From a virus: 40,350 nt of DNA. The notes below the pieces were generated by a model, which saw nothing but the letters and a program-made list of their open reading frames with translations, was not told the origin of the DNA and made no database searches. The position numbers and the translations under genes were made by a program. The stretch is taken from the IMG/VR virus record IMGVR_UViG_3300036829_000176, positions 1 to 40,350 of that record; one strand, written 5' to 3'. Below, piece after piece: positions 4,764-40,205 of this stretch. Position 1 is the stretch's first letter; the number at the start of each line of letters is the position of its first letter.

Positions 4764-5056
4764 CAGATCAAATCTCCTTTCTTGTTGATAGCCCATACCC
4801 GTGGCAGGGGCTCTAGGCCGTCGTAGACCGTGCACGGGCACGGCACCCAAACATAATCACAGCCGTATTCCGTGTCTGCTTTGATTTGCCGGATCTGGCC
4901 GTGACAAACCTTCCCGTCTTCGTGGATGCCGAATCCGTGGGAGCACGAGCACACGGCCGCCACGCTGCCGGGCTTCTTGGGTCTGCGCACCAGGCTGCCG
5001 ATGGTGGATCCGATCGCGCTGCCGATCGCAGCTCCGAGGATGGTTTCAAGGATCAT
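4763..5056 (-). CDS. Glycine-zipper membrane protein with Cys-rich domain, 97 aa
   Basis: The start at 5056 overlaps the upstream stop as ATGA. Residues 1-24 form a small-residue helix with repeated GxxxG spacing (ILGAAIGSAIGSTIGSLV), then a basic stretch RRPKKPG. After that comes a soluble domain with five or more cysteines (CSCSHGFGIHEDGKVCHG, VPCPC), probably metal-binding. It is probably anchored in the membrane with the Cys domain on one side. Role unknown. Confidence 0.65.
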   Translation of the reverse strand: MILETILGAAIGSAIGSTIGSLVRRPKKPGSVAAVCSCSHGFGIHEDGKVCHGQIRQIKADTEYGCDYVWVPCPCTVYDGLEPLPRVWAINKKGDLI

Positions 5057-5241
5057 GACTCGGCCTGCCGGGATCCGGCCGCGGGCTCGTTGGCGTCGAG
5101 CCATTCCATCGTGATGATTCGCAGAAGCGTGGCTGGCTTGATGTACCGGCGCTGGGCGGCCGAGAGCAGACGGGCCTTGTCCGAAGGCCTCAGGAGCGTC
5201 TGAGTGAGCGAGGTGAGAGCCTCTGGTATTCGATCATCCAT
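5053..5241 (-). CDS. Small helical protein, 62 aa; first gene of leftward operon
   Basis: Not recognised. Helical, with SLTQTLLRPSDKARLLSAAQ followed by RRYIKPATLLRIITMEWLDA. The latter looks like a helix-turn-helix or ribbon-helix-helix-sized DNA-binding segment, but this is only a guess. It lies beside the candidate origin, and its ATG (5241-5239) comes 6 nt after a TATGAT box, predicting a leaderless mRNA. Its position next to the origin would suit a copy-control or partition regulator. Confidence 0.65.
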   Translation of the reverse strand: MDDRIPEALTSLTQTLLRPSDKARLLSAAQRRYIKPATLLRIITMEWLDANEPAAGSRQAES

Positions 5242-5257
5242 GTGGTGATCATATCAC
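5241..5257 (-). promoter_or_regulatory. Leaderless promoter with palindrome before gene 5053-5241
   Basis: On the minus strand TATGAT (5253-5248) is followed by six bases and then the ATG at 5241, placing transcription start at about the first coding base. No Shine-Dalgarno is present, which fits leaderless translation common in actinobacteria. The -10 lies in a palindrome GTGAT-CAT-ATCAC (5245-5257). The -35 is weak (TTGCGG, 19-bp spacer). This would drive the operon down to 1934. Confidence 0.45.
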
Positions 5258-5312
5258 ACAATCCCCTAGTTTCCGCAAGGCCCAATGCTCTGACCTGGGC
5301 TAATGCCGCAGC

Positions 5313-5389
5313 GTTCCAACACGGTGGAACGATGTTGGAACACATAACCGCAGGTCAAGGCACGTTGGAACGATTCCAACGATTCCAAC
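5313..5389. repeat. Left iteron cluster
   Basis: Units: GTTCCAAC at 5313-5320, the complement GTTGGAAC at 5334-5341 and 5364-5371, and ATTCCAAC at 5373-5380 and 5382-5389, plus a degenerate GGTGGAAC near 5324. The last two full units are 9 bp apart in direct orientation. It is too short and irregular to be a CRISPR array. Confidence 0.75.
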
Positions 5390-5400
5390 ACCCTCCCCGT

Positions 5401-5530
5401 TCGGGGGAGAAATATTGTAAATATTGTAGTATATTCTCGCGCTAATAAAAATACATAGTACAACGAAGTTAAATTATAAAGAGACTATTTTATTATTACC
5501 CTCGGTAATCTATAATATTATAAATATTGG
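5401..5530. other. AT-rich core between iteron clusters
   Basis: A sharply AT-rich block with repeated AATATT/TAAATATT words near both ends (5411-5426 and 5513-5529) and a small inverted repeat ATTACC-CTC-GGTAAT at 5495-5509. This is the expected DNA-unwinding element of the candidate origin. No gene is seen. Confidence 0.6.
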
Positions 5531-5550
5531 GCTCTGGCCGCGGGTGGACG

Positions 5551-5625
5551 GTGGAACGGTTCCAACGGTTCCAACGCGCTCTGACCTGCGGAAACACGTT
5601 CCACCACCCGTTCCAACGTTGGAAC
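5551..5625. repeat. Right iteron cluster
   Basis: Units: GTGGAAC at 5551, GTTCCAAC at 5559-5566 and 5568-5575 (direct, 9-bp period), a degenerate GTTCCACC at 5598-5605, GTTCCAAC at 5610-5617 immediately followed by GTTGGAAC at 5618-5625. It mirrors the left cluster across the AT-rich core. Confidence 0.75.
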
Positions 5626-5688: not shown

Positions 5689-5729
5689 AAAAATTGGTCA
5701 CACCCTATTACAGAGCGTGACCAATTTTT
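5689..5729 (-). terminator. Rho-independent terminator after the PrimPol operon
   Basis: A perfect 13-bp stem (AAAAATTGGTCAC at 5689-5701 and GTGACCAATTTTT at 5717-5729) with a 15-nt loop lies 11 bp past the PrimPol stop. The minus-strand transcript ends in a T-rich run, so it should stop the leftward replication operon before the origin. It could also act on rightward transcripts. Confidence 0.8.
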
Positions 5730-9330: not shown

Positions 9331-9755
9331 CAGGGCTTCACCTCCACCGAATCAGCACCCGCTTGGAATCCCGCATCATAGACAGCTTTGCCTATTTGCA
9401 TGAATCGTTCTTTGACATCGCGGCCGAGGTCTTCCCACATAGCGAAAGCCCAGCCCTCAGCCCACAGATCGCGGGCCAACCGGCCGAGGTCTTCCCGCGG
9501 GTCAGGTGGCGGCCGTGTGCCGTCACAGAGCCCCTGGGTGATCCAATTTCTGTCGTCGGCGTTGGGGATGTGCCCGGCATCCCAGATGGCCTTGGTCAGG
9601 GCCTGCTTGGCTTCGTAGTAGGCCAGCCGGTTAGCAGCGACCTCGGCACCCAGAGCGTGCGCAGCGGCCAGCAGCGTGGACCTGAAGCCCTCCCAGCCGG
9701 TCTTGGCATGCCGGGTCACCGCTTTGAGTTGCAGGAGCGACGCATCAGTCCACAT
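9330..9755 (-). CDS. Stand-alone homologue of the PrimPol helical domain, 141 aa
   Basis: Residues about 10-85 match residues about 230-308 of the PrimPol-helicase in the same operon. The shared frame is VTxHAxxGWxGFRxTL, then YxEAxxALTxAI, then W(I)xQGLxDG. The C-terminal half is a different helical segment (EDLGRLARDLWAEGWAFAMW). This looks like a duplicated copy of the domain joining polymerase and ATPase parts, and it may compete with or bridge the same partner. No catalytic motif is present. Confidence 0.7.
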   Translation of the reverse strand: MWTDASLLQLKAVTRHAKTGWEGFRSTLLAAAHALGAEVAANRLAYYEAKQALTKAIWDAGHIPNADDRNWITQGLCDGTRPPPDPREDLGRLARDLWAEGWAFAMWEDLGRDVKERFMQIGKAVYDAGFQAGADSVEVKP

Positions 9756-10224
9756 CGTTTACCTCACTAGGCTTCATTTTGTCCCAAGGGATCTTGCCTT
9801 CTGGTGTCCAGAAACGAAACCGACGCTGGCGCTTGCCGGTCAATACCACAGTCATCAGGCCGTCAGTCGCTAGCACGATTTTGTGTGCCGACTCAACACC
9901 CATCCGGTGAATAGACCAGCGATGATGCGCGAATTGAAGAGGAGGAATGCCGAGGTCAAAATGTCGTTCAGTCGGCCACACTTCTTCCCAGTACCCGCCA
10001 CGCACCACCCAAGACCAGAAGCCCCAAGGGTGATCGTGAGGGTGTCGGCCGGTGTCCGCTTCATTGATCCAGTGCACAAACACACTGAACCAAGGAGTAT
10101 TGACGACACGCAGCCGCCGGAGATAGACCTGCCCCTCATTCACCTGAGAGGGGATGTCGGCCCATTTCCAGAAAGCCCACAGATTCCCGGTAGGGTGCCC
10201 GTACTTAACCGGCATGTCAGCCAT
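9745..10224 (-). CDS. Cupin-like protein, 159 aa
   Basis: A small beta-barrel protein. The central motif TGRHPHDHPWGFWSWVVRGG followed by YWEEVW is the His-rich first cupin motif. A second part is PPLQFAHHRWSIHRM with further histidines and VLTGKRQRRFRFWTP at the end. The histidines suggest a bound metal. Related small cupins occur in phage genomes; substrate unknown. An alternative start is the Met at residue 4. Confidence 0.65.
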   Translation of the reverse strand: MADMPVKYGHPTGNLWAFWKWADIPSQVNEGQVYLRRLRVVNTPWFSVFVHWINEADTGRHPHDHPWGFWSWVVRGGYWEEVWPTERHFDLGIPPLQFAHHRWSIHRMGVESAHKIVLATDGLMTVVLTGKRQRRFRFWTPEGKIPWDKMKPSEVNDVD

Positions 10225-11824: not shown

Positions 11825-11952
11825 TCCTGCTCACCCCCAGATATATCGATAGAGGTGTAGCACCGACCACACTCGATAGCACTATCATCTATCTCGTTGT
11901 GTGGTCCGTCGAACCCACATTCGGGACATGGGTACTCCTGCAACTCATCCAT
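11821..11952 (-). CDS. Zinc-ribbon mini-protein, 43 aa
   Basis: ATG at 11952 overlaps the polymerase stop (TAATG) and its own stop overlaps the next start (ATGA). It has CPECG near residue 9 and CGRC near residue 28, a four-cysteine zinc ribbon, between acidic segments. Its position directly after the polymerase suggests a replisome accessory, but this is inference. Confidence 0.65.
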   Translation of the reverse strand: MDELQEYPCPECGFDGPHNEIDDSAIECGRCYTSIDISGGEQE

Positions 11953-13997
11953 TAGACTCCTAACAATTCTGTGAGGTCTTCGTCAATTTCCTTTACGATG
12001 TCTCTACCGCTGAGTAGGTAGTCATCCGGGTACTCGGCCCACCGTGTGCTATACGGGGGCTTGTCTACATCACACTCAATCGGAATGCCGTTGTACTCCA
12101 TCGTCATAGCCCATTTCAGCAAGCGCGCTGCTTCATCAGCCATGTGCTCAGGCACGCACAGCAGAATCTCATCATGCATCACCCAGTAGAGAGCCCAGGA
12201 CCAACCGGCATCAATGATGCGGTGAATCGCAGTAGCGAAGAGATGTCGCTGCGTTCCCTGAGTGTAATAATTGAGCCCAAGTCGGCTGGGCTTAGTGGAG
12301 AGATGAATGCCCTTGTCATCAACGAAATAGCGATCCCACAACGGTGCGATCCAGCCGGACTCAAGGAAGGCCGCGGGCTGTTGGTTTACTCGGTCCCTGA
12401 ACCGAATGAGATCAGGGTACCGGGCTTCCCAGCGCCGGATGGCTGCTTGGGCTTGGGCAACAGAGATGCCCAGCAGGCCCGCCAGCTTCGCAGCACCGCA
12501 GGCGTAGCCCCAGGCAAGGAAGGCGAACTTCGCGGCCTGACGCAGGATGTAGGACTCGGTACCGGCCTTCTTGCCCTCGGCCTCCCGGTACATGTCGCCA
12601 TAGCTCATGGTGGCAATCGAGCTGTACAGGTCACCTTCGAGGAGATCTCGCCGCAAATTCATATCACCGGACAATCCCGCCATGACGCGGGGCTCACCCT
12701 GCTGAAGATCCGCGGTAACCAGCACCCAGCCGAGGCGAGAACAGAGAGCGGTGCGGATCTTGAGACGCTTCTCGCGCTTGGGTGGCTGCTGCATCGGAGG
12801 GCGCGCGGCCGAGTTGCGGCTAGAGATCGTGCCGATGGCTCGGAGGTCCGGGTGTACGCAGCCGTCGCGGCCTAGCCCTTCGAGCATCGGCTTGACATAG
12901 GAGCTGCGGAATTTGGCGGCCTTGCGGACCGCTAGAAGAGCCGTGGCCAGCAGACCGGCGTAGCTATCAGGCTCCGCCTCAACGATTTTCTCTAAGACGC
13001 TCTTATCCCAGCAGACCCCGCCGCCTTTCGTCCGCTTGGTGTTCTCGGTCTGCAAGAATCCCTGCTGGGACAGCCAGTCAAACGCACCGCTGATCGAGGC
13101 ACCCTGGGCTGATGGCGGGATGTGATACCAGCCTAAGAGCTTGCGGTTCTCTTCGATGATCTCGGCTAGCCGGGCATCAAGCCATTGGACGTACGGGCCA
13201 TCTAGCGGCATGCCACGCATGCACATCAAATCGTAATGCCATTGCAGGCGTAGATCTTTCTGGAACGGCTCCCATTGCCCCTGCTGCCAGATGCGGCCGA
13301 GGTACTGGTTAAATGATCGGCAGGCGACGATGGAGTCAAGGCCAGCATAGGTCAGGTAATCGATATCGGTGTCTTCGATGTGCTCGAAACCGTAGGGCTT
13401 CCAGACCTTCTCGGCAGGTGTGCATTTATTGTCCCGCTTGTAAAGCGCTTTGAACTTCTCATTCATGGTTTGCTCAGCCCGACTGAGATAGTCGAAGCCG
13501 AGGTTCAGAGCAGCCGAAAGCTTGAGGCCTTTAGGCCGAGAAATCCGAGGGTCGATATTATCTTTCTTACTCGCTGTAGTGACGGTGCGAGGATCAGCGT
13601 AAGCCAGCGCGACTTGGCCATCTGCTACGTGCGGGTGGTATTGGCCTGTCCGGATGGAGCCTGGTACGCCACGCTCCGTAAACATGATGTCGTTGCGGCT
13701 GAACCACGCCACCCAGGCATCGTGCGCGCTCACAACCGACTGGATCACCCGCGGCATGTCCGGCCGCTGGGCCTGAATCACCCATCCGGACGACTCATCG
13801 GCCACCTGCACCGTACGCAGCAGGTATGAGGACGAGAAAGGATCATGAGCGTTGGTTTCCGCGTCTAGACCGAGCCAACTTCCTTGCCGCTCGCGCGTCC
13901 AATCCCAGAGGGCCGAAGCATCCTCCAGGGTGTTGACTACTCTCAGTAGTCCTAGCTCTGTCTCGATCACCTGCACCGGGGCGACTGTACAGGCCAT
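11952..13997 (-). CDS. Family A DNA polymerase with 3'-5' exonuclease domain
   Basis: 681 residues, the size of phage Pol I-type enzymes lacking the 5' nuclease. The exonuclease site is visible as GLDAETN (Asp45, Glu47) and YAGLD (Tyr217, Asp221). Polymerase motif A is VTADLQQGEPR (Asp430). Motif B is RQAAKFAFLAWGY (Arg486, Lys490, Tyr498). Motif C is MHDE (608-610). Motif A departs from the usual DYSQIELR but keeps Asp, Gln, Glu and Arg. It should be the replicative polymerase of the element, with proofreading. It is the first gene of the leftward operon ending in PrimPol and is divergent from the helicase/nuclease operon. Confidence 0.95.
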   Translation of the reverse strand: MACTVAPVQVIETELGLLRVVNTLEDASALWDWTRERQGSWLGLDAETNAHDPFSSSYLLRTVQVADESSGWVIQAQRPDMPRVIQSVVSAHDAWVAWFSRNDIMFTERGVPGSIRTGQYHPHVADGQVALAYADPRTVTTASKKDNIDPRISRPKGLKLSAALNLGFDYLSRAEQTMNEKFKALYKRDNKCTPAEKVWKPYGFEHIEDTDIDYLTYAGLDSIVACRSFNQYLGRIWQQGQWEPFQKDLRLQWHYDLMCMRGMPLDGPYVQWLDARLAEIIEENRKLLGWYHIPPSAQGASISGAFDWLSQQGFLQTENTKRTKGGGVCWDKSVLEKIVEAEPDSYAGLLATALLAVRKAAKFRSSYVKPMLEGLGRDGCVHPDLRAIGTISSRNSAARPPMQQPPKREKRLKIRTALCSRLGWVLVTADLQQGEPRVMAGLSGDMNLRRDLLEGDLYSSIATMSYGDMYREAEGKKAGTESYILRQAAKFAFLAWGYACGAAKLAGLLGISVAQAQAAIRRWEARYPDLIRFRDRVNQQPAAFLESGWIAPLWDRYFVDDKGIHLSTKPSRLGLNYYTQGTQRHLFATAIHRIIDAGWSWALYWVMHDEILLCVPEHMADEAARLLKWAMTMEYNGIPIECDVDKPPYSTRWAEYPDDYLLSGRDIVKEIDEDLTELLGV

Positions 13998-37200: not shown

Positions 37201-39321
37201 TCACAACGCCTCCAAGGCAACGTTGATGTCTGAGGCGGTGTAGCAGCTGCAATTGCCTCGAAGCTTGTTGCGCATGCTCTTGGCCTTGGGTGCTTTGTCG
37301 CCCAGCTCGGCCCGCAGGCGCTTGGCCAGCTCCGTAGCGTCGATCTCCTCATTGCAGTTCTCAGTGATCCACTCAGCGGCCATCGCGCTGGGCAGCTTGC
37401 CGTCCACCGGATCTATGTCGTCCAGTGCGGCGGCCAAGGCCGAGAGGGTGTTAGGCACTACCTGAGCGTCTACAGTGCCGCCGGAGTTGCCGCTGCCGTC
37501 GCCGATGCGGGGCAGTCCATCTGCCAGCCGACGAGCCCGGCGCCGTTTGATTTCGTCTTCTGGCATAGGCGTCCAGCTGCAATAAACAACCGGGTCGAAT
37601 CCCGCGGCATTGACATAGCAACGACCGGCATCATTCTTGGCCTGTCCTCGAACTGCCGACTTGAGCAGGTTCGGTGCCCAGCCAGCCCGACGCAGATCAG
37701 GAGAGAAGATCTCGTTAGCGTCGTCCTGGGTGCAAGGCCCGACGAGCCAAGCCATCATCTGTGAGGAGATGCCTGTGGTTCCCGAGTCGGACTTGCCGGT
37801 TTTCTGTGCTGCGGTCACCAAGGTAACCCAGTGCTTGCTGCCGGTCCGGGCGATAATCTCGATCCTGCTCGCCAAATCAATAGTACCCTTCGGCTGTCCA
37901 TTGAATTTCGTAGCCTGAGGCATCTCATCAATGATGAGGTGAATGCTGGGCTCGTTATAAAACTCGGCCAGGTGAGCATTCCACTCACGGCCCTTAGAAT
38001 TGGGGTCATCGCTTCGCGCAATATCACCCAAGATCTTGGCCCGACGCTTAATGATTCCGAGTAGCCAATCAAGCAAAGCTTCGGCATCCTCCGGGGTGTA
38101 GGCCACCCGCTGAATGCAGTCACCGTAGATCGGGAACAGCGGCCCCTCGGTAAGGTCGATACCGACAGCTACGGCATTGTAGCAAGCAAGGATAGCTTCG
38201 ATTACCGCACTGACGAGACCCTCGCTTTTACCGCCACCCGATTTGGCGACAATGCCAACATGCACCCCAGCGAAGTGCACCCGGAATGGCATCTTGGTCT
38301 GAGACTTGCCGAGGAGGAACCCTTCGATCACCGACTTGGATTTCGTCGGCACCCAAGGTGCGATAGGAACGTCCGTGAACGGATCGCCATGCTTGATGGT
38401 CAGGATTCGGCGAGTCGCTACCGCGGGCACGTCAAGTACCCGGATTGAGCGCAGCGCCGCACCGATAGACCGCTCAAGCGAGCGAACATGTGCCTCCGTG
38501 ATGTCCTGGTAGGTGGAGAGGTTTTGTATCCACTCCTCACGATCAAAATCATAGGTACAAATACCATCCACCCGTACCAGCGGGTGACTGCCACCGTCGA
38601 TACCCACAATCTCGTTAAAAGCTGACTGGATCGAATCCGTCAGTTGCTTATAAGGCATGCCCTCCCGTAGCGGCTCTCGGTACACTGGGGTGAATTCTGT
38701 TTTCTTCTCGACCCCAGCACGGCCGATCAGATCGAGGATAACCACTAGACTAATAAGGACAGCCCAGAAATAAGTAAGGTTGGCAATGTACAAATAAGCC
38801 ATGCTGCCCGCGGCCACGAGAACAGCGATAATCGAAGCCCAGATGCGATAACCGTGGCTCTTGTGCCGACTAGCCAGTGTGCGAGCCTTAAGAGGTCCCT
38901 CAGCTACTTGCTGCGCAGCATCGAGGTGCACCGCGGTAACCCACTTGGTGTAGGCCACGACGCACTTGCCACAGCCGCACCACACTGGCCGGACAACTTC
39001 TGTCCAAACGCCTTTGGGCGCCTTGATAAAAGCCCAGTTAATGAGGATGCCGGGCACCTTAGGTGCAGCATGCTGAAGGCGGGCCTTGACGTATCGCCGA
39101 TCTGGCAGTGTCAAAGCGTGCTTGTCTACCCAGGCCCAACCCTTCGGCTCTTCGTCGGACGAGGCTTCCCATTTGACTACCTCGGAATTTACGACATCCG
39201 GGTATTCAGGATCGGGCTGTGCGCGCTCGAATCGCCGAAGCCACGCGCGCCAGCGCGTAGGAGGCTTGTCATCGTCCGGCGGTGGCGCCGGGCTGGGCTG
39301 GTTGAGGTCGGTAATAGTCAT
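37201..39321 (-). CDS. FtsK/SpoIIIE (TraB-like) DNA translocase, 706 aa
   Basis: The start at 39321 overlaps the DUF2637-like gene as ATGA. A soluble N-terminal part contains PVWCGCGKCVVAY. Two membrane helices lie at about 160-200 (ASIIAVLVAAGSMAYLYIAN; YFWAVLISLVVILDLIG). The motor has Walker A HVGIVAKSGGGKSEGL near residue 360 and Walker B IHLIIDEMPQ near 465. The C-terminus (AAEWITENCNEEIDATELAK onward) looks like a winged helix, the place where TraB proteins read their 8-bp target. Such proteins move double-stranded DNA between cells in actinobacterial plasmids and integrative elements. The octamer cluster right after the gene fits this role. Confidence 0.9.
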   Translation of the reverse strand: MTITDLNQPSPAPPPDDDKPPTRWRAWLRRFERAQPDPEYPDVVNSEVVKWEASSDEEPKGWAWVDKHALTLPDRRYVKARLQHAAPKVPGILINWAFIKAPKGVWTEVVRPVWCGCGKCVVAYTKWVTAVHLDAAQQVAEGPLKARTLASRHKSHGYRIWASIIAVLVAAGSMAYLYIANLTYFWAVLISLVVILDLIGRAGVEKKTEFTPVYREPLREGMPYKQLTDSIQSAFNEIVGIDGGSHPLVRVDGICTYDFDREEWIQNLSTYQDITEAHVRSLERSIGAALRSIRVLDVPAVATRRILTIKHGDPFTDVPIAPWVPTKSKSVIEGFLLGKSQTKMPFRVHFAGVHVGIVAKSGGGKSEGLVSAVIEAILACYNAVAVGIDLTEGPLFPIYGDCIQRVAYTPEDAEALLDWLLGIIKRRAKILGDIARSDDPNSKGREWNAHLAEFYNEPSIHLIIDEMPQATKFNGQPKGTIDLASRIEIIARTGSKHWVTLVTAAQKTGKSDSGTTGISSQMMAWLVGPCTQDDANEIFSPDLRRAGWAPNLLKSAVRGQAKNDAGRCYVNAAGFDPVVYCSWTPMPEDEIKRRRARRLADGLPRIGDGSGNSGGTVDAQVVPNTLSALAAALDDIDPVDGKLPSAMAAEWITENCNEEIDATELAKRLRAELGDKAPKAKSMRNKLRGNCSCYTASDINVALEAL

Positions 39322-40205
39322 GACGCCACCTCTTGACGATTCTTGCGCCACTCACCCAGCAGTTTCTTGCAGGTATGCGGGCTGCCGTTGATGCCCTCGG
39401 CCAGCTTGGCGGCCGTGGTCTGTGCGTTGTGGTGTCGATCCAGCCAGGCAAATGCGGTGTCGCGTACGTCCGAGCGGCGGGCAGGTGCTGAGGTGGTCGG
39501 CGTGGGAACTGGCTGGTCAGAGCGTTGCCCGCGATCGGGGAAACTAAGTTTCCGCTGGTCAGAGCGTGGGCGAGCAGGAAACGGCGTTACCGTTGTAGGT
39601 GGGGGGCTAGCCCCCAACGAGCGTTGTAGCTCAGGAGCAAGCAGCGCCTGCTGCTCTTCTAGGTCGCCGCGTGCAGTCGGCCCCCGGCGCTCTTCCGAGA
39701 TCCGCTCAGATGGAGCAATGATCGGGGTATTTTTTGCCAGCGTGCGGGCCTCTTCTTCAGCAAGAGCCGCAACCTCGACAGGCGTGATCACCCGCGCACA
39801 CTCGCCGCGGTACTCGGCCAATCCGACCATGATCAAGGGCACGAACGCGTGCACCAAGATCAGCGGAATTTTCAGCACCACCCGGATGGGCAGCACGATG
39901 GCCGCAAGGCAGTTGAGGACAACAGACATCGCTGCGGTGCCCCAGCGCAGTGCTCGGCCCCACGGTCCCGACGTCAGGCCGATGCGCTCTAGCAGGTGAT
40001 CTCCCGTGAGCACCACCCACAGCGCGACGTCTACGGCCAGAGCTGTCATAGCGCCTGAGGCGATGCCCCACCCATCATTTTGCAGGGTGTAGAAAGACGT
40101 AACGCCGGAGATGGCCGATGCCGACATCGTGATACCTGCACAGGCCCAAATCCCGGCATTCATCTTCTGTCGGGTGAGACGCACCGTAGCAATGTCGAGC
40201 GTCAT
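39318..40205 (-). CDS. DUF2637-like membrane protein with C-terminal HTH, 295 aa
   Basis: The start at 40205 overlaps the previous stop as ATGA. Four membrane segments in the first 150 residues (AGIWACAGITMSASAISGVT; IASGAMTALAVDVALWVVLT; TAAMSVVLNCLAAIVLPIRV; LILVHAFVPLIMVGLAEYRG). A disordered Pro/Arg/Ser region follows, then a C-terminal HTH-like domain (NAQTTAAKLAEGINGSPHTC; KKLLGEWRKNRQ). DUF2637/SpdB-type proteins sit beside FtsK/TraB genes in actinobacterial elements and help spread the element between cells. Coupled to the translocase. Confidence 0.8.
   Translation of the reverse strand: MTLDIATVRLTRQKMNAGIWACAGITMSASAISGVTSFYTLQNDGWGIASGAMTALAVDVALWVVLTGDHLLERIGLTSGPWGRALRWGTAAMSVVLNCLAAIVLPIRVVLKIPLILVHAFVPLIMVGLAEYRGECARVITPVEVAALAEEEARTLAKNTPIIAPSERISEERRGPTARGDLEEQQALLAPELQRSLGASPPPTTVTPFPARPRSDQRKLSFPDRGQRSDQPVPTPTTSAPARRSDVRDTAFAWLDRHHNAQTTAAKLAEGINGSPHTCKKLLGEWRKNRQEVAS

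Follow-up and report, generated by a model that had tools for sequence, protein, structure and literature searches.

Anatomy of the site

The window analyzed here is the 40,350-bp viral record IMGVR_UViG_3300036829_000176 itself, and all positions below are window coordinates. Directly 3' of a minus-strand gene for a primase-polymerase (PrimPol), two arms of short repeats (iterons) flank a stretch of AT-rich DNA, and this site, a candidate replication origin, is the subject of the present analysis. It was compared with its counterparts in two related viral contigs (L002 and L003), whose PrimPols are 79-90% identical to that of the window. The site and its surroundings comprise:

5291-5298 (+): outer copy of a second element, TGACCTGG, without mirror partner; extra outer copies are also present in L002 and L003
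5313-5389: distal iteron arm, six GTTCCAAC-type sites at 5313+, 5323-, 5334-, 5364-, 5373+ and 5382+; the same arm is found in L002 and L003
5348-5357 (-): second element of the distal arm, CCGCAGGTCA (i.e., TGACCTGCGG on the minus strand), inside a 30-bp gap
5398-5541: AT-rich core (~144 bp), the presumed melting region, ~70% AT versus 43% AT in the window
5495-5509: perfect palindrome in the AT-rich core, ATTACCCTCGGTAAT, identical in L002 and L003
5550-5625: PrimPol-proximal iteron arm, six sites at 5550-, 5559+, 5568+, 5598+, 5610+ and 5618-; mirror of the distal arm
5582-5591 (+): second element of the proximal arm, TGACCTGCGG, inside a 30-bp gap and opposite in orientation to the distal-arm copy
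5689-5729 (-): intrinsic terminator of the PrimPol gene, 19 pairs and a T tail; kept in L002 and L003
5740-8046 (-): PrimPol, the presumed initiator, with an AEP primase-polymerase domain (residues ~10-195), a helical domain, an MCM-like AAA+ ATPase (~349-650) and a C-terminal winged helix (703-762)

Seven exact copies of GTTCCAAC are present in the window (0.73 expected; 0 of 100 shuffles reach seven), and all of them lie inside 5313-5625. With up to one mismatch allowed, the same 313 bp hold 12 sites (seven exact and five with one mismatch), versus 0.15 expected from the density in the rest of the window. On the plus strand the signs of the sites read + - - - + + in the left arm and - + + + + - in the right arm, i.e., they are mirrored at five of six positions, and thus the arms are near mirror images; start-to-start spacings, from the core outwards, are 9-9-30-11-10 on the left and 9-9-30-12-8 on the right. 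A repeat search returned one 65-nt inverted repeat (71%; 5333-5397 / 5542-5606), while Rfam and tRNA scans gave no matches.

The first-pass annotation, made from the letters of the window, had described this cluster as an origin with two inverted iteron arms. The cluster is confirmed and is tighter than had been noted; its two arms stand, and the annotated count of five units on the left and five or more on the right was a slight underestimate of the six per arm. The element that it saw in both arms in opposite orientation is TGACCTGCGG, inverted in the two 30-bp gaps. Also as described there, the PrimPol gene with its own terminator adjoins the site: the 3' end of the gene (5740) faces the iterons, with the terminator between the two.

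Conservation in close relatives

All three known members of the lineage keep the arms, the core, the palindrome, the second elements and the terminator after the PrimPol gene. One of the two related contigs (G001) is 95,770 bp long and has a terminal repeat of 127 bp; it is therefore a complete phage, and it encodes terminase, portal, protease, capsid, tail and endolysin. Nearly the entire window is syntenic with this complete relative and hence represents one part of a siphophage genome of about 95.8 kb. No second iteron cluster was present in the complete relative. A DNA-level search for the site in phage and plasmid records yielded no convincing match, thus the iteron word is specific to the lineage of the window. 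In viral contigs the iteron pattern had 57 matches, most of them isolated chance ones, and clusters were found only in the window lineage and in contig L029. The latter cluster (L029:9149-9230) is a head-to-tail run of the 9-mer GTTCCAACG, with nine copies that all share one orientation; instead of being an origin, it may encode a VPT repeat.

Such repeats could in principle form a partition site, i.e., a parS-like centromere bound by ParB or by a ribbon-helix-helix protein and segregating a plasmid-like prophage. There is precedent in mycobacteriophages Miko and Rachaly, where parS repeats lie directly downstream of repA (PMC7157519), and a small open reading frame (ORF) of a suitable kind adjoins the site:

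5053-5241 (-): 62-aa ORF, ribbon-helix-helix-like by inspection; no Pfam or PHROGs match

However, an element with a ParABS centromere encodes ParA and ParB, and the window and the complete relative yielded no match to ParB_N or to a ParA-type ATPase, with the controls detected (a tyrosine integrase was likewise not found in either). Moreover, iteron sequence goes with the replicase's winged helix (see below), a centromere has no need of an AT core with mirrored arms, and in L002 an unrelated small ORF, again ribbon-helix-helix-like (L002:2578-2745), takes the place of the 62-aa ORF beside unchanged iterons. A partition site is thus very unlikely. The 62-aa protein had also been put forward in the first-pass annotation as a possible binder of the iterons; with this replacement in L002, and with a GTGAT..ATCAC palindrome of its own preceding the ORF (region 5053-5290), its product is probably not the iteron binder.

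Layout across distant PrimPol relatives

Distant relatives were assembled as two sets: i) a viral set of 80 divergent PrimPol loci from viral contigs, obtained by a profile search, with near-identical loci removed before counting; and ii) a genome set from named actinobacterial genomes, obtained with a profile query after a scan with a single protein query had returned no relative. The cut-off above which a 3' array counted as positive was fixed on the viral loci and kept without adjustment for the genome set. One locus of the genome set overlaps the viral set, and the genome-set counts were essentially the same once it was removed. As positive control the procedure was applied to P4, where it recovered the type I crr iterons that follow alpha.

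In the post-stop flanks of many viral loci an octamer is repeated 5-14 times, in both orientations, around a dip in GC content, and the octamers differ between loci (TGTTGGAC, CGGGGACA, CGTCCGAC, AGGTGGAC, CCGTGGAC and others). A 3' array accompanied 37 of the 48 viral loci with the helicase/winged-helix module, versus 4 of the 16 sharing only the AEP domain (Fisher p=5e-4); moreover, several positive loci are without AEP homology to the window protein, and arrays also follow ~500-aa helicase/winged-helix proteins without a matched AEP domain. In the genome set, arrays were present after the stop codon at 27/57 loci, versus 1/56 upstream (p=5e-9) and 3/57 inside the gene (p=3e-7). Among the 64 positives the first iteron lay at a median of 6 bp past the stop codon, and 58 arrays were two-armed; the arms were opposite in orientation in 39, the same in 6 and tied in 19 (p=5e-7). 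The inter-arm region had a median length of 122 bp and, in 53 of 54 cases, a lower GC content than its own locus. The layout is also present in the cultured phages Jojo24, Reyja, TinyDot, Ayotoya and phiGD17-1 and in one Nonomuraea plasmid.

These positions bear on another explanation, in which the repeats are operators of a transcriptional repressor or activator governing the operon downstream of the site, from the 62-aa ORF onwards. The half-sites do form palindromes, as dimeric regulators prefer, and a promoter region is expected near 5242-5290. However, the location of the arrays 3' of the replicase gene, at a median of 6 bp past its stop codon and almost never upstream, the AT core in nearly every case, and the separate palindrome that the putative regulator already has all argue against operators, which we consider highly improbable.

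Several individual loci are of interest in their own right. In Gordonia phage TinyDot (PP978851.1; L069:6289-6639) gp58, annotated as "hypothetical protein", overlies a two-armed array of 14 CCGTGGAC copies located 3' of the PrimPol gene, and is probably an origin, not a gene. At L080:6290-6560 the intrinsic terminator hairpin that belongs to the initiator gene itself holds the three proximal iterons (TGTTGGAC) in its loop, and these iterons recur in the distal arm with mirrored spacing. Some AEP-only relatives with frames of 1,550-1,820 aa (L140:7473-7766, L144:7524-7825, L132, L138 and L148) carry within the frame a ACCCGTCA/CCCGTCAC cluster in both orientations, possibly an origin within the gene as in lambda O. 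Near 8290-8450 in L097-L100, L106 and L111, a cluster of GGAGGAAC repeats lies ~1.2 kb downstream of AEP-only PrimPol genes.

Probable readers of the iterons and the second element

Partial Mantel tests over 64 loci linked the iterons to the winged helix given the helicase (0.294, p=0.001), and not to the helicase given the winged helix (0.031, p=0.30). When only the 72 pairs with a helicase identity >=0.6 were considered, iteron similarity rose with winged-helix identity (rho = 0.77). For example, L074 and L075 are 80% identical in the helicase and 35% identical in the winged helix, and their iterons differ (CGGGGACA and ATGAGTAC); L073 and L143 have an RKR motif in common in their recognition regions, and both have AGGTGGAC iterons. 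From sequence comparison, PrimPol itself probably reads the iterons through its winged helix; the covariation is the strongest evidence for this and is still a correlation.

Alternatively, the site might be an origin at which host DnaA or a small phage protein, rather than PrimPol, binds the iterons, PrimPol being only recruited to it. The actinobacterial DnaA box is TTGTCCACA. Iterons of some relatives (TGTCCACA, TGTCCACG) resemble this box, and TGTCCAC-type iterons similar to it occur at L096, L123, L125, L158 and other loci. On the other hand, the window iterons match the box at only 4/9 positions (by inspection), the covariation with the PrimPol winged helix persists once helicase relatedness is removed, and arrays are also present after the ~500-aa helicase/winged-helix proteins with no matched AEP domain. 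Recognition by another protein is therefore unlikely.

The second element behaved differently from the iterons, being common to origins with different iteron sequences. In origin regions the density of TCTGACCTG was 0.32 per kb, versus 0.008 per kb outside, and that of CTGACCTGC was 0.35 versus 0.028 per kb; 9-10/10 matches to CAGGTCAGAG were present in 15/68 origin regions versus 9/388 control windows. TATATAT and CGCGCGA are other core motifs seen in relatives beside CAGGTCAGAG. Since the second element is shared by origins with different iterons, its reader is probably more constant than the winged helix, namely the primase domain, the helicase core or a host protein. Specific priming sites have been described for PrimPols such as NrS-1 and ORF904 (PMC8718748), so that the second element is plausible, by analogy, as a priming site.

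PrimPol protein and neighboring genes

PrimPol matched Pfam family PF09250 (1.2e-21) and, weakly, DUF3987. The AlphaFold2 model of the whole protein (mean pLDDT 86) has an AEP domain, a helical domain, a P-loop ATPase, a long helix and a C-terminal winged helix, and the C-terminal module modeled alone reached pLDDT 88 and pTM 0.81. With both models, all 50 PDB matches listed by Foldseek were MCM chains or MCM-containing complexes (best E 2e-6), with modest TM-scores of only 0.3-0.45 relative to the query; among the matches listed, the closest solved fold was the MCM ATPase plus C-terminal winged helix. The models thus place the predicted helicase module near MCM AAA+ helicases in fold, at modest TM-scores. 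A phmmer search of the protein against the PDB gave no matches.

Two other genes of the window were noted. Within the replication region, 9745-10224 (-) matches a phage "cysteine dioxygenase" family of PHROGs (8.6e-27). At 37201-39351 (-) lies an FtsK/SpoIIIE-like protein (PHROGs 4.8e-17), and no conjugation genes were evident among the proteins scanned.

A probable replication origin, probably read by PrimPol

We conclude that the site is very probably the replication origin of an uncultured actinobacterial siphophage, and that the winged helix of PrimPol probably reads it. The two inverted iteron arms of the first-pass annotation are supported as an origin by i) the conserved layout in two related viral contigs; ii) the recurrence of this layout after distant homologues that have other iteron sequences; and iii) the covariation of iterons and winged helix.

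Several observations weigh against this conclusion: i) GC skew tracks gene orientation, and third-position skew is flat, so that skew provides no independent origin signal at the site and no information on direction; ii) two of the three nearest lineage members are metagenomic fragments; iii) 11/48 viral and 30/57 genomic helicase-module loci have no detectable 3' array; and iv) in Cluster O phages the array is located ~3 kb upstream of the PrimPol gene and not 3' of it as in the window. The last two concern the situation in which, according to the first-pass annotation, an origin would be doubtful, namely repeats missing where the PrimPol is kept. This was never the case in close relatives, and it holds for some distant ones as far as a detectable 3' array is concerned. 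Loci without a 3' array may have relocated, degenerate or missing origins, and the genomic ones may include inactive prophage remnants.

From the computed site anatomy, conservation, link to the helicase/winged-helix module, covariation and predicted folds we infer binding, double-ring assembly, melting, priming and replication direction as follows. The C-terminal winged helix of PrimPol would bind the GTTGGAAC/GTTCCAAC half-sites in each arm. The mirror symmetry of the arms would place two initiator complexes, probably helicase rings, face to face across the AT-rich core; such facing assemblies, already suggested in the first-pass annotation, are consistent with the mirrored arms, the MCM-like ring-helicase fold and the case of SaPI Rep, for which two hexamers are described (PMC7581432). 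Initiation might then be bidirectional, a possibility also raised in the first-pass annotation. The core would then melt and the MCM-like helicase domains would be loaded onto the exposed strands. Priming would begin with the fused AEP domain, for which the TGACCTGCGG elements might act as guides, and the phage's own PolA-type polymerase (11952-13997) would extend the primers.

More tentatively, the site might represent an undescribed class of replicons that is widespread among actinobacterial phages, prophages and plasmids. A single protein would then combine primase-polymerase, MCM-like helicase and origin-reading winged helix and form a head-to-head pair of rings on the mirror arms; its iteron word would change together with the winged helix, and a shared GCAGGTCAGAG would be the place of loading or priming. 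We found no description of this origin class in the open-access papers searched. Such an origin would be concrete and transplantable for many actinobacterial phages and mobile elements for which no described replication start was found, including cultured Gordonia and Mycobacterium phages and one plasmid. It would also provide a one-polypeptide, possibly MCM-like model for two facing helicases opening an origin. In Kazlauskas et al. (PMC5862659) the reading of origins by winged helices of AEP fusions is speculation only, and the word iteron is not used; this speculation is now testable, with L074/L075 as a natural swap.

Comparison with known systems

A classical iteron plasmid origin (Rep plus DnaA boxes) has one array of direct iterons beside an AT region, unlike the two arms of mixed, mirrored orientation in the window. 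In the Sulfolobus plasmid pRN1 an essential region lies directly 3' of the PrimPol-helicase gene ORF904, as in the window; however, this origin is a 100-bp stem-loop, thought to support rolling circle replication, and the accessible part of the report does not describe two-armed iterons (PMC3869888). RepPP/Prim-Pol modules of actinomycete integrative and conjugative elements (SLP1, SCO4617-4618) are likewise Prim-Pol linked replication modules in the same hosts, and an origin of the window layout is not described for them in the accessible part of that source (PMC3218068). In the Cluster O mycobacteriophages (Corndog, Firecracker) the displaced site has an AT core flanked by opposite arms of TGTTGTAC iterons, together with CAGGTCAGAG/CTGACCTGCGG elements; this AT-rich intergenic element is one of two candidate origins named by the authors (PMC4351075).

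The first-pass annotation gave no named origin with this repeat. The repeat is indeed new, while the layout is known from phage-inducible chromosomal islands (PICIs), including the Staphylococcus aureus pathogenicity islands (SaPIs), and resembles P4 alpha-crr. In P4 (NC_001609) the primase-helicase gene alpha is followed by a terminator and then by octamer iterons in both orientations, as in the window; on the other hand, P4 crr consists of two direct 120-bp repeats, with a separate ori1 carrying the same iterons several kb away, whereas the window has one mirror-image cluster.

According to published accounts (PMC7581432), PICI/SaPI origins are similar to the window site in that two iteron sets flank an AT-rich region (as they do in the window and its relatives) directly 3' of the initiator gene. 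Iteron binding by the C-terminal domain of the initiator would be a further likeness if the predicted winged helix reads the iterons, as the covariation suggests. In the same accounts Rep is a helicase of DUF927 or D5/Primase_Cterm type, whereas the initiator of the window combines AEP with an MCM-like, DUF3987-type module; PICIs and SaPIs are phage satellites without full virion genes, whereas the element of the window is a self-sufficient siphophage; and the extra TGACCTGCGG elements and the occurrence in Actinobacteria also set the window site apart. Because initiator family and element type differ, the site is not a PICI origin by membership, and the two-armed layout, described as unique to PICIs (PMC6092414), extends to other replicons. 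By analogy, the best reading is that the site would work like the bipartite PICI/SaPI origins and P4 alpha/crr, served by a different primase-helicase of MCM-like, DUF3987 type.
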